The position numbers and the translations under genes are program-made. A stretch of 17,038 nt of DNA from Methylobacteriaceae bacterium (GTDB lineage Bacteria; Pseudomonadota; Alphaproteobacteria; Rhizobiales; Beijerinckiaceae): assembly GCA_019247255.1 (NCBI GenBank), contig JAFAPJ010000174.1:1-17038 (forward strand), written 5' to 3'. Position 1 is the first letter of the stretch. Each line of letters starts with the position of its first letter. The notes below the pieces were generated by a model. It made no database searches and was not told the DNA's origin. It worked only from the letters and a program-made list of their open reading frames with translations. Shown in pieces: positions 8,711 through 13,377 of this stretch.

Positions 8711-9961
8711 CTAAAACTTGAGTCTCCGACCCGGGCCACGCAGTCCGTACGTCAACACCACGCCATCCCTAATAGCAGCAGCAACATTAACTGTCGCAGA
8801 TATCACATCAACCCCGTCAAGCATTGTAATGCTCCTTGGAATCTCCTCACTATCCGGCGATTTCGACGTACCAAATACGCTGTCATTTCCAATAAGATAA
8901 CACTTCCTATCAACATCGAGGAATAAAGTATAGAAAGTAGACGTCGATATCTGCTCTATTTTTGCCGTGAAATCGATGATTGCAGGTTGGCAATCGCTTT
9001 TACAGACCTCCTTACGAATGCCCCATCGCCATACTTTCCCGTCTTCTGCCAGGGCATACGTAGCGAGATCAGCCGAAACCGAGCGGATTTTTGGTAGGCT
9101 GGTCAATCGAGTAGCCGAAAAGCCGCGCTCGCCACTATAAAGTTCGCCTGAGCCCCTTGCCAATTGGTAGCTCTTGCCTCCCCAGGTCCAAACAACGCCC
9201 GCCTCATCGATCGCCATGGCATGGAAAGCGCCCAGGTAAACCTTCTTGATGCGAACGGGGAGCGGGACACGGACAAATTTTATATATGTTCTTTTCTGTG
9301 AACCGACGTCATCAATGCGTCCAGAGATTTGCCCCTCGCTGTCGTCTCCAAGGCCAAATACATTACCGTACTGATCGACAATCAGTCGTACCGTGCCACC
9401 TGTCTTTGGATTGTCAACGGACGCGGCATGGACAGCAGCAATGCCACCGATTGACCGTGACTCGACGCGGCAAACGGGAACCTCTTCGTTCGAACATACG
9501 CTGTCCCAGGTGCTAACTTCTCCGTTCTGCCCAAGGGCGATACCGTTCTGCCCGCCAGAGATGAATACAATTTTACTTTTTGGAAAAAGTGTAATCGGTT
9601 TTTCGCGAATTGTAGGCTTCTCAAAGACGCTCAAGCTGCCGTCGCTTCGGAGGACAGCCTCTGCAGCCCGGCCGATAGCTTTTGCAGCGCTGACATCATC
9701 GCTTGAATCGCAGGGAGAAATAGTAACTATCATGAATAGCAGATAAGCGATAAAGCTGTAAATTGGCGACCGACAATAAATAGGCGATCTGTCTCCTGTT
9801 TGCTTTGCTTTGAATGGGTTGAAGCAGATTTGCACGCTCGGCAAATGCTCTTGCGATGCATGATGGTACGGTGCAGCTGACGCCGTTTTGGGGGCAGGAT
9901 CTCGACTCGATCCTGACAAATTTTTCATCGCAGGTGACAATGATTTTGGTACTTCATACAA
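8711..9961 (-). CDS. RCC1-repeat (beta-propeller) membrane-anchored protein
   Basis: The 416-residue product carries repeats of the RCC1 type: GEVSTWDSV (147-155), GNVFGLGDDSEGQ (199-211), GVVWTWGGKSYQLA (255-268), GKVWRWG and GVVLTYGLRGPGR at the C-terminus, as in a seven-bladed propeller. One hydrophobic segment (YSFIAYLLFMIVTIS, 68-82) precedes the propeller, which would then lie outside the inner membrane. TTG at 9961 has a good GAGGAG site 7 bases upstream; ATG 9733 inside the hydrophobic segment is a poorer alternative. The gene is visibly A+T-richer than its neighbours, with many AAA, ATT and AAT codons, suggesting recent transfer. RCC1 proteins mediate protein-protein contacts; no specific role can be given. 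Confidence 0.78.
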   Translation of the reverse strand: MYEVPKSLSPAMKNLSGSSRDPAPKTASAAPYHHASQEHLPSVQICFNPFKAKQTGDRSPIYCRSPIYSFIAYLLFMIVTISPCDSSDDVSAAKAIGRAAEAVLRSDGSLSVFEKPTIREKPITLFPKSKIVFISGGQNGIALGQNGEVSTWDSVCSNEEVPVCRVESRSIGGIAAVHAASVDNPKTGGTVRLIVDQYGNVFGLGDDSEGQISGRIDDVGSQKRTYIKFVRVPLPVRIKKVYLGAFHAMAIDEAGVVWTWGGKSYQLARGSGELYSGERGFSATRLTSLPKIRSVSADLATYALAEDGKVWRWGIRKEVCKSDCQPAIIDFTAKIEQISTSTFYTLFLDVDRKCYLIGNDSVFGTSKSPDSEEIPRSITMLDGVDVISATVNVAAAIRDGVVLTYGLRGPGRRLKF

Positions 9962-10365: not shown

Positions 10366-10977
10366 GTACGGGGCCTGGTCCTCACGGCCGGCTCCCAGGC
10401 AATCTCACCGCGCGTCCGGTTCAGGGCTTCGGCAAGGGCTGCAGCGGAGAGGCAACCGAGAGTCGCCCCCGCATCGGGCGGGGATCAAAGCTTCAGCAGC
10501 TGCAACAGGTTCGGCCTTGTGGGTCGCCCCGCCTTCTGGGAGCCCTGATCGAAAGGAGGATGCCGCGTTCACCACCTGCGTTCACCTCCTGCGCAGGCGG
10601 GGGCCGACCTGCCAAACAGGCGAGACGTGGCGGTGGTCGCAGTCACCGTCGAACCTCTCTCCCGGGCGGCTACCCTGCTCAACAGGCTCAAAACAGGGAT
10701 TATTTCGATTTTTGACGCTCAAAACAGGGGCAACGGCCCGCCCAGCTCGTGTAGCATCACGAAATAAACCAGCCATATTAGACCCTTAGCCCGCTTCGTA
10801 GGCTTTTTCCTGTTTGTCTCCGGAACAGGGTACGATCAGCGGCGAACAGGCTACGCGTCAGACCTCATCAGGTGCTCGGGAAGCCGCTAGCAGGCAAGCC
10901 GGCGAGCGCGGGGCCGGACCTGTGGAATGCGGCCGGGCCGAGATGATGTTCGCCGTCTGTTCTGTTATACTGCATGG
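10366..10977. other. Non-coding stretch with repeat cluster, upstream of the methylase operon
   Basis: No convincing gene lies in these 612 bases. A small minus-strand frame at 10405-10572 (55 codons, GTG start) encodes an unremarkable Ala/Arg-rich peptide and is left uncalled. GCGTTCACC occurs twice (10565 and 10578). The main structure is a cluster of AACAGG hexamers, listed separately. TATACT at 10966-10971 sits seven bases before the methylase ATG and could be the -10 of a leaderless transcript, but no -35 is visible. Confidence 0.5.
10504..10850. repeat. Cluster of AACAGG repeats, including a 31-bp-period direct repeat
   Basis: AACAGG occurs at 10504, 10615, 10681, 10692, 10723, 10824 and 10845, with an inverted copy (CCTGTT) at 10809. 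GCTCAAAACAGGG is exactly repeated at 10686-10698 and 10717-10729 (period 31), and a shortened GCTCAACAGG precedes it at 10677. CCCTG (10673-10677) and CAGGG (10694-10698) also pair as an inverted repeat around this block. The density far exceeds chance for a high-GC sequence. Iteron-like binding sites, a recombination site or an operator are all possible. Confidence 0.6.
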
Positions 10978-12270
10978 ATGGACTGCTCTGATCCGCCTGT
11001 CCCGGCACCGTCGGCCTCGCAGCTCCTGGCCGTGACCTACCGGCCGGCGGCGAGCCTCCGGCCCGATCCGCGCAACGCGCGGACGCACTCAAAGCGGCAG
11101 ATCGAGCAGATCATCGCATCGATCCAGGCATTCGGGTTTGCGAACCCGATCCTGATCGACCCGGAAGGTGTCCTGATCGCTGGCCACGGTCGCCTTCTTG
11201 CGGCGAAGGCGATGGGCATGACGGACGTGCCAACGATCGAACTCGCCGGGTTGGATGACGCGCAGAAACGCGCCTTGCGTCTTGCCGACAACAAGATCGC
11301 CCTGAATGCCGGTTGGGATCTCGATCTCCTCAAGACCGAGCTGGGCGACCTGTCGTCCTTCAACCTGGACCTTGGGCTGACAGGCTTCTCGACAGGCGAG
11401 CTCGATGTGCTCCTTCGCTCGAGAGACGATCCCGAGGACGACGTGCTCCCGCCGGTCCGGGGCACGCCGCGCACGCGGCCCGGCGACGTCTGGCAGCTCG
11501 GTCCGCACCGCATTGGCTGCGGCGACAGCCGCGACCACGCGTTCTTACGTCGCGTCGTCGGAAGCGACGATAAGATCGACGCTGCTTTTCTCGACCCTCC
11601 CTACAACGTTCGGATCAACGGGCACGCCAACGCGAGAGGCCGCCATCGCGAGTTCGCCATGGCGTCCGGCGAGATGACCGACGAGGCCTTCCAGACGTTC
11701 CTGCGCGAGACGCTCGGCGCCGCGGCTGCGGTGTCGCGGGAGGGAGCCGTCCATTTCATCTGCATGGATTGGCGGCACATGGAGGATGTGTCGGCTGTCG
11801 GCCGCCAGGTCTACGGAGAGCTGCTGAACCTGTGCGTCTGGAATAAATCGAATGCCGGGATGGGTTCGCTTTACCGGTCAAAGCACGAGCTCGTCTTCGT
11901 GTACCGGGTCGGGAGAGAGCCTCATTTCAATGCCGTCGAGCTTGGGCGTCATGGGCGCAATCGGACGAACGTGTGGGATTACGCCTCCGTCAACTCGTTC
12001 GCGGGCAGCCGGCGGGAGGATCTGACCCTACATCCGACCGTGAAGCCGACCGCCCTTGTGGCGGACGCGATCCAGGACGTGACGCGCCGTGGCGACCTGG
12101 TGCTGGACACGTTCCTCGGCTCCGGCACGAGCTTGATTGCGGCCGAGCGGGGCGGACGACGGTTCCGGGGCATGGACATCGATCCGGCCTATGTCGATGT
12201 GGCGCTCGACCGCTGGAGCGCCATGACGGGCGGCGCGCCCGAGCTTGCAACCGATCAGGAAGCCGCATGA
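10978..12270 (+). CDS. ParB-N domain / beta-class DNA methyltransferase fusion
   Basis: The 430-residue protein joins a ParB/Srx-like N-terminal domain (about 20-115, with GVLIAGHGRLLAAK at 64-77 and LADNKIALNAGWD at 102-114) to an N6-adenine/N4-cytosine methyltransferase. Catalytic motif IV is DPPY (206-209), followed by HPTVKP (352-357) and the SAM-binding motif DTFLGSGT (377-384), then GMDIDPAYV. Motif IV before motif I marks the beta class (CcrM-like layout). No restriction partner is present, so it is an orphan methylase as found in phages and mobile elements. ATG 10978 is preferred over an upstream GTG-type start because the ParB-like domain begins soon after it. Its stop overlaps the next gene as ATGA. 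Confidence 0.88.
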   Translation: MDCSDPPVPAPSASQLLAVTYRPAASLRPDPRNARTHSKRQIEQIIASIQAFGFANPILIDPEGVLIAGHGRLLAAKAMGMTDVPTIELAGLDDAQKRALRLADNKIALNAGWDLDLLKTELGDLSSFNLDLGLTGFSTGELDVLLRSRDDPEDDVLPPVRGTPRTRPGDVWQLGPHRIGCGDSRDHAFLRRVVGSDDKIDAAFLDPPYNVRINGHANARGRHREFAMASGEMTDEAFQTFLRETLGAAAAVSREGAVHFICMDWRHMEDVSAVGRQVYGELLNLCVWNKSNAGMGSLYRSKHELVFVYRVGREPHFNAVELGRHGRNRTNVWDYASVNSFAGSRREDLTLHPTVKPTALVADAIQDVTRRGDLVLDTFLGSGTSLIAAERGGRRFRGMDIDPAYVDVALDRWSAMTGGAPELATDQEAA

Positions 12271-12830
12271 CGGGGAGTGCCGGTCATGGCCGCCCTCCCG
12301 CCGCGACCCGCTTCCGCAAGGGCGAGAGCGGTAATCCAAAGGGTCGGCCGAAGGCTGGTCCGAGGACCTCACCCTCCGCATTCGACGTGATCATCGACCG
12401 AACTTTCACGGTGAGGCAGAACGGCAAGGACCGCGAACTCACGGTCGAGGAGGCGCTTCAGCATCGGACGTACCAGGATGCGATTGCCGGCAACCGAGCG
12501 GCCCGGCGTGAGGTCCTGAAGATGATCGAGAAGCGAGAGAAGTGGCTGGCGGGCAGGAGCACGACGCGCCACGCAGTCGCGGTTCTGAGTGAGCCGACCG
12601 ATCCCAGAAACGCCGACGGAGCGCTGCTGCTGCTGGGGATCGCCGAACCAGATACCAAATTCGCCGGAGTAGCGGACCCGTACGATCGGCTGCTGCTGGA
12701 GCCGTGGGCCGTTCAGGCCGCCTTGAGACGACGTCGGCGACGCTTGTCGGAGAAGGAGATCGCGGCCGTCAAGCTTTGTACGCGCGACTCGCAAAGCCTC
12801 GTTTGGCCCGCGGAGACCAGCGATGAGTGA
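12267..12830 (+). CDS. DUF5681 domain protein, first paralogue
   Basis: The 187-residue protein opens with RFRKGESGNPKGRPKAG (15-31), the hallmark of DUF5681, a basic glycine-rich motif suited to nucleic-acid contact. The middle part (DRTFTVRQNGKDRELTVEEAL) and the C-terminal part (LLLEPWAVQAAL, then a run of arginines, LSEKEIAAV, and SLVWP) match the next gene position by position. The ATG overlaps the methylase stop by four bases, so I take it rather than longer starts inside the methylase. The function is unknown. DUF5681 genes often lie near phage-type or ParB/methylase genes in alphaproteobacteria (memory, unverified), which suggests a DNA-binding partner role. Confidence 0.8.
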   Translation: MTGSAGHGRPPAATRFRKGESGNPKGRPKAGPRTSPSAFDVIIDRTFTVRQNGKDRELTVEEALQHRTYQDAIAGNRAARREVLKMIEKREKWLAGRSTTRHAVAVLSEPTDPRNADGALLLLGIAEPDTKFAGVADPYDRLLLEPWAVQAALRRRRRRLSEKEIAAVKLCTRDSQSLVWPAETSDE

Positions 12831-13377
12831 GGCGAGTGAGGTCGGCTACCGCCGGCCGCCGACCTCGACACGGTTTCAGAAGGGCCGCAGCGGGAACCCG
12901 AAGGGCCGGCCCCGAGGACGGCACAACCGGCCACCCTACGAGGCGATCCTCGGCCAGACGGTTTCGATCAAGGAGGACGGTGTCGAGCGTCGCGTCAGCG
13001 CCGCCGAAGCCTTCCTCCTCTACATGACTAAACGCGGGCTCGACGGCGATGGCGCCGCGGCCCGGTACGCCTTGACCGCGATCGAGGAGGCCCGTGCGGC
13101 TCGGCCCGCCGAGAGCGGGGGTGGTGTGACGACCATCGTCCGGTGCTTCGTCGAGCCCGGAACGGTCAACATGGCGCTCGAGCCGCTGGGGATGGCGTCC
13201 AAGCTCGACCGCTATCGGCCCAGCGCCCGCATGATGCTCGAGCCATGGATCGTGGAGATGGCGCTGGCGCGGCTTGGAGACCGGCGTCTTACGCCAGGCG
13301 AGCAGGAGACCATAGTCCGCGCGGTTCGGACGCCGCACAAAGTGAAATGGCCAGACTGGTGGGAGGTGAAGGGCTAA
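12823..13377 (+). CDS. DUF5681 domain protein, second paralogue
   Basis: The 184-residue protein carries RFQKGRSGNPKGRPRGR (17-33), the same N-terminal motif as its upstream neighbour. It keeps the central helix region (VSIKEDGVERRVSAAEAF) and the C-terminal LEPWIVEMALARL (139-151) ... RLTPGEQ ... KVKWPDWW. It starts eight bases inside the preceding gene, so the pair is translationally linked. The two proteins are clearly related but strongly diverged outside the shared motifs, arguing for an old duplication with separate roles rather than a recent copy. The product is basic at the N-terminus and has no membrane segment. The function is unknown. Confidence 0.8.
   Translation: MSEASEVGYRRPPTSTRFQKGRSGNPKGRPRGRHNRPPYEAILGQTVSIKEDGVERRVSAAEAFLLYMTKRGLDGDGAAARYALTAIEEARAARPAESGGGVTTIVRCFVEPGTVNMALEPLGMASKLDRYRPSARMMLEPWIVEMALARLGDRRLTPGEQETIVRAVRTPHKVKWPDWWEVKG

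Follow-up and report, generated by a model that had tools for sequence, protein, structure and literature searches.

Results

Gene content of the cassette

The window, the whole stretch of 17,038 nucleotides analyzed here (Methylobacteriaceae contig JAFAPJ010000174.1), comes from a metagenome-assembled genome (82.65% complete) and carries on its forward strand three overlapping genes, hereafter the trio: a ParB-N/N6-N4 DNA methylase fusion (10978..12270), DUF5681-A (A; 12267..12830, 187 aa) and DUF5681-B (B; 12823..13377, 184 aa). These open reading frames were confirmed as first annotated, with an overlap of four bases between the methylase stop and the ATG of A at 12267, and of eight bases between the stop of A and the ATG of B at 12823; the methylase also has an alternative in-frame ATG at 10927. 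The methylase was recognized by both Pfam (N6_N4_Mtase, 3.2e-29) and PHROGs (ParB-like family, 6.8e-51), with a ParB_N match (8.7e-4) that lies below the Pfam cut-off, and it carries the motifs DPPY, FLGSGT, GHGR, and ADNK. All three genes are intact and the catalytic motifs are present. PADLOC classed the methylase as MTase_II; no restriction nuclease was detected by Pfam among the 10 window ORFs scanned, and no restriction nuclease partner of the trio by PADLOC among the 25 of 68 methylase matches listed. Two features go beyond the initial annotation: a larger, recombinase-bearing unit to which the trio belongs in relatives, and a cis array of AACAGG/CCTGTT repeats upstream of the methylase at 10681..10850 (forward strand; direct copies at 10681, 10692, 10723, 10824, and 10845, inverted copy at 10809). 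A gene encoding an RCC1-repeat-like protein with a TTG start (8711–9961, reverse strand) adjoins the cassette.

A and B are basic proteins (pI 10.1 and 10.0) that match PF18932 (4.7e-20 and 1.6e-18, respectively) and each represent an orthologue group. Their description as strongly diverged, full-length homologues with common motifs was borne out by 31% identity over 175 columns and an hhalign probability of 99.8, with GNPKGRP, LEPW, and a late WP common to both. PF18932 covers only the first ~90 residues of either protein; a second, C-terminal part (LEPW...L...WP, the LEPW domain of A) is common to A and B and missing from terminase-adjacent DUF5681 proteins in an alignment of 16 sequences. 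The PKGRPRGR motif of B is presumably AT-hook-like. When 29 A and 29 B sequences were placed in one tree, each group formed a single clade (support 100/100), indicating a single duplication before their spread. That A and B are partners, as had been proposed, gained support from the retention of the two orthologue groups in tandem and from a natural A-B fusion, P0243 (370 aa), in which A corresponds to residues 1–174 (40% identity) and B to 195–370 (51%); P0241, P0242, and P0247, which by eye resemble frameshifted versions, were left out of the fusion count. In the metagenomic P0245, one reading frame comprises a DUF5681, a C-terminal methylase fragment, and another DUF5681.

Database relatives at E ≤ 0.001 numbered 2465 for B and 1913 for A, the best 120 of each being mostly on short contigs, and 7177 of 8000 scored candidates belonged to the DUF5681 family at the same threshold. 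A and B are conserved at 56–77% identity across 19 and 18 aligned relatives, respectively. At the set cut-offs, B orthologues occurred in 4 of 385 genomes of the class, 4 of 397 of the order, and 1 of 298 of the family, the last being the host's own; no second DUF5681 was found in the 82.65% complete host assembly. The trio is a sporadic unit and, given its scattered occurrence, has probably spread between species.

Gene order in relatives

Pattern scans yielded 35 loci among 84,980 species genomes and 3 among 2.9 million viral contigs, in which 102 stretches matched a pattern. B scored over 90 bits in 36 of these 38 loci (L040 and L041, without such a match, were left out), and the removal of five loci truncated by contig ends (L009, L032, L035, L036, and L044) left 31 testable ones. 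The order methylase-A-B is kept in 28 of the 31, usually with four-base gene overlaps and in some cases in decayed form (e.g., L037), in support of the earlier view that the three genes are one unit and at odds with the possibility that they are not conserved together. The count includes L010, where methylase and A share one ORF and the methylase was scored present by hand. The exceptions were L017, which lacks a methylase match, retains just the end of A, and has an IS240-type transposase gene immediately upstream; L033, a fragment; and L039, where B stands alone near a methylase-DUF5681-TerL set. A large terminase was found in 0 of the 28 trio loci within the fetched flanks (four-sequence profile), so the trio is not regularly part of a complete prophage; constant membership of a complete prophage is what the initial annotation had named as refuting its proposal.

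A large serine recombinase of one family adjoins the trio in 20 of the 28 loci (antisense shadow ORFs of the methylase were struck by eye from the neighbour-family count). The earlier statement that no integrase is present thus holds for the window, but not for the cassette in general. All 20 loci also contain DUF2924, and 19 of them match DUF3489 as well (weakly in L016 and L029); Pfam identifies all three in L011, and the full element measures ~5.2–5.6 kb. The recombinase is missing from L024, L025, L030, L031, L037, L102, and the window even though upstream sequence is present, and its absence cannot be scored in L022, L023, and L038 because contig ends lie close by. No remnant of the recombinase, DUF2924, or DUF3489 was detected in the window by tblastn, and the ends of its element copy were not located. 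On the methylase tree, the recombinase label needs six changes, five of them forced by well-supported branches, compared with a mean of 7.1 for shuffled labels, 112 of 500 of which were as low as six; the count includes the contig cut L022, the terminase-type cousins L005 and L039, and the weak recombinase hits L006 and L095, and we read it only as the recombinase half having been lost or exchanged more than once.

Several loci carry further genes. Downstream of the trio in L024 (10687–12727), the one locus of this kind given to Pfam, genes for a YqaJ exonuclease and an ERF annealing protein were identified; relatives of these genes lie downstream of B in the Bradyrhizobium loci L030 and L031. 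In L073 (1042–7212), recombinase-DUF2924-DUF3489 at a tRNA-Ser is accompanied by a methylase-DUF5681-DUF5681 set that is inverted and belongs to another subtype. In L095 (6451–9790), HTH and IrrE-like peptidase genes are divergent from a methylase-DUF5681 pair, and the array adjoins the peptidase gene.

Element ends and mobility

A genome of the host's taxonomic order (G818) contains two copies of the element (L104 and L105) that are separated by 1.2 Mb, share 99.35% identity over 5,241 bp, and have different flanks, demonstrating recent movement or duplication of a relative of the window's element. Identity begins at CTCCGCCA and ends ~90 bp past the B stop, at GTTTTTGAGAA. Over the 520 compared residues, the recombinase stays in a single open frame in either copy. 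The coding sequences of methylase, A, B, and DUF2924, by contrast, are each divided between reading frames, identically in the two copies; movement or duplication therefore needs no trio. Two copies in Bauldia (L007 and L021) are 90% identical over 5.4 kb and lie in different places. Broken copies also include L010, L017, L020, L033, L037, and L101, in addition to L007 and both G818 copies.

At the left end of the element, CTCCGCCA is the end of many tRNA-Ser genes. Of the 20 loci with the recombinase, 18 have it facing away from the trio (in L028 and L029 it faces the opposite way and lies upstream of the array); in 11 of these 18, ARAGORN found an intact tRNA-Ser (GGA, GCT, or CGA) that ends 383–443 bp before the stop codon of the recombinase. 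On the other side, a tRNA-like piece starts 1–89 bp after B in ten loci (L008, L009, L012, L013, L015, L022, L026, L032, L035, and L036), which we take to resemble the 3' half of an initiator tRNA-Met. Left ends at tRNA-Ser and a tRNA-Met-like piece after B do not fit a simple attachment model. A similar initiator tRNA-Met-like piece is inverted in L018 and L041. In L036, ARAGORN called a tRNA-Met that spans the B 3' end and the tRNA half (252–326) and a second, complete tRNA-Met (498–574); another tRNA half lies ~8.5 kb further on (9077), as if a further island were there.

The AACAGG repeat array

The stretch from 10560 to 10978 of the window (419 bp), which was picked once the hexamers had been seen, contains seven of them, whereas 5000 Markov-1 shuffles averaged 0.19 and never exceeded three. 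Relative to the inverted copy at 0, the copies of the window array lie at -128, -117, -86, +15, and +36. Across 29 arrays, copies recur near -116 (25), -85 (21), +36 (18), +58 (17), and +79 (21), positions 0 and +15 being fixed by selection and not counted as evidence; the 29 anchors were hand-picked from one-mismatch matches plus later loci and are not all independent (L007, L022, L027, L036, L039, L102, L104, and L105 are not among them). The array is noncoding; it sits between the left end and the recombinase gene, except where that gene is missing or placed elsewhere, in which case the array precedes the methylase.

The pattern CCTGTTN{8,10}AACAGGN{13,17}AACAGG has a single match in the host assembly, and the array core was found in 6 of 385 genomes of the class, compared with 0 for the reversed control. 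Two of the six (G000 and G154) have methylase-DUF5681 without an intact recombinase, the DUF5681 of G154 being single and of another kind; G342 has both methylase-DUF5681 and the recombinase, G325 the recombinase set without a trio, and G145 a recombinase fragment, while G216 ends at a contig edge. The array therefore accompanies either half. It is also present in the recombinase-less L024, L025, L030, L031, L102, and the window. Three of these, the Bradyrhizobium loci L024, L030, and L031, form a clade in the methylase tree (99/96), and their arrays have altered spacing with an 11-bp step after +15; array retention in this clade is suggestive of a tie between array and trio, and only suggestive. 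L031 has two arrays 4.7 kb apart (1278 and 6023), the first without a methylase.

Relationship to phage packaging loci

A related methylase occurs in 1241 phage records, of which five were inspected, together with contig L003. Four of the five (pOW20-A, Javan178, ct3Oc712, and WO) have the order methylase-ORF-TerL, and in three of these four PHROGs identified the middle ORF as a terminase small subunit; in AcaML1, the terminases come ~2.4 kb further along. The middle ORF of Javan178 is weakly like both DUF5681 (0.005) and the small terminase (0.018). DUF5681 stands directly before TerL in L003, L005, L006, L039, and Leptospira phage LE3, and L003 brings together a recombinase, a short DUF2924 match, a methylase, DUF5681, and TerL, making it a plausible intermediate. 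This arrangement corresponds to the phage ParB-Tls packaging locus, which comprises a ParB-like protein, a DNA-modifying gene, and a terminase large subunit; the window gene combines the ParB domain with a DNA methylase as in that locus. In the portion of the source available, this locus is thought to direct DNA modification in packaging, and 36 methylases are described in Paracoccus (pro)phages, where, as here, a ParB-N/methylase fusion is concerned, there upstream of terminase genes (PMC6536676). Unlike ParB-Tls, the trio has no adjoining large terminase or structural genes, its DUF5681 is duplicated with a C-terminal domain added, and it is often joined to a serine recombinase.

A and B themselves are not directly upstream of a large terminase in the trio loci; they had no PHROGs small-terminase match and no PDB match, and the other DUF5681 proteins tested had no sequence or fold match to known small terminases. 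Searches with Foldseek and VIA returned nothing useful for the model of A, which was only fair, and the model of B was too poor to search. In Pseudomonas phage 254, a small terminase is annotated separately from the DUF5681 ORF. In the excerpt of the source available, the structural proteome reported for a Salmonella phage includes peptides from a DUF5681 protein (PMC8954984), which is odd for a small terminase. The order of ParB-methylase, small terminase, and large terminase, frequent in phages, with DUF5681 found in the place of the small terminase, points to descent from a packaging locus. As the initial annotation had suspected, and as gene position suggests, the methylase/DUF5681 half of the element thus appears to descend, quite probably, from a phage packaging locus without its large terminase.

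Discussion

We lean towards reading the cassette and its upstream array as the immobile remnant of a small alphaproteobacterial integrative element of packaging-locus descent, in which an A/B heteromer would guide the ParB-methylase to the array. The anatomy of this element is the part of which we are most confident: the full element begins with a left end at CTCCGCCA, as at the 3' end of tRNA-Ser, and the AACAGG array, continues with the large serine recombinase, DUF2924, and DUF3489 on the opposite strand, and closes with ParB-methylase, A, B, and a right end. In its ancestry, DUF5681 would have taken the place of the small terminase, followed by duplication, gain of the C-terminal domain, and loss of the large terminase. 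Co-translated with the methylase, A and B may assemble into a basic heteromer, which would bind the array, probably via the GNPKGRPRGR arm, while the ParB-N domain could help bring the methylase there; recruitment of the methylase to the array by A and B is a tentative proposal drawn from sequence features. The methylase would then mark the DNA of the element, or host DNA more widely, and might confer a benefit or take part in packaging. Against this explanation stand the many decayed relatives and L097, where the array occurs with the recombinase and no trio, which means that the array may serve the recombinase.

Part of these data would also suit a stand-alone epigenetic or anti-restriction cargo, in which the methylase shields the element from host restriction and A and B act as specificity or stability partners. 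The methylase is of an orphan type, with no nuclease among the ORFs scanned, and the trio is intact without a recombinase in the window and present without one in the L024/L030/L031 clade, L025, and L102. We consider this rather unlikely, as it leaves the fixed geometry of the array and the packaging-locus ancestry unexplained; like orphan type II methylases, the enzyme is solitary (PADLOC MTase_II), but here its DUF5681 pair is constant and it has a cis array. A reading of the cassette as functionless debris of a decaying mobile element would account for the common broken copies and the loss of the recombinase from the window. It is improbable for a trio whose genes are intact with catalytic motifs, whose A and B retain the identity given above, and whose array spacing is kept.

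A minimal phage satellite is a further reading, in which the recombinase excises the element, a helper phage or gene transfer agent packages its DNA, and A and B act on the array as a redirecting small terminase. The small-terminase position and the lack of structural genes agree with this, and like phage satellites, especially PICMIs, of which the source available in part describes examples of about 6 kb, the element is small, integrated, and without capsid genes (PMC10803314). Of 17 recombinase-bearing host genomes tested, 16 have Terminase_6C and the remaining one, G705, has a portal. Terminase_6C is also found in G818, with a background of 88 of 192 genomes of the class, and in 0 of 6 hosts whose copies are unclear or lack the recombinase (G000, G711, G712, G713, G718, and G719). 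However, these counts ignore kinship, with four Sneathiella genomes and Rhodobacterales among the hosts, and the recombinase-less G852 also has Terminase_6C. Many Rhodobacterales carry gene transfer agents. The 82.65% complete host assembly had neither a Phage_portal nor a Terminase_6C match. Moreover, the trio is broken in the G818 copies, which moved recently, only 3 loci came from the viral contigs of the pattern scan, and, unlike in phage satellites, the six genes that fill the element include no primase; the satellite integrases known to us are other than its serine recombinase. We therefore regard a satellite as a poor candidate. Still more doubtful is its extended form, namely ~5 kb alphaproteobacterial satellites with a packaging initiator that marks itself as their entire cargo. 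In these, a duplicated, heteromeric, small-terminase-like pair on an iteron-like packaging array would lead helper phages or gene transfer agents to package DNA marked by the ParB-methylase; the recombinase half would come and go, and copies without it, such as that of the window, would persist in host chromosomes as fixed sites of packaging or marking.

Modified DNA may be read by RAMA domains. The compact mobile element described here joins a recombinase, a DNA-binding DUF2924 protein, and a DNA methylase. According to the section of the source available, DUF2924 partly matches the RAMA domain (PMC11342252). In the portions available of full-text, open-licence papers, there was no recognised description of the element under DUF5681, DUF2924, DUF3489, or their combinations. 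Relatives of the element are known from soil and sea bacteria. On the reading favored here, the unassigned DUF5681 family would gain a role open to testing, namely that of a protein pair binding DNA at a proposed target site.
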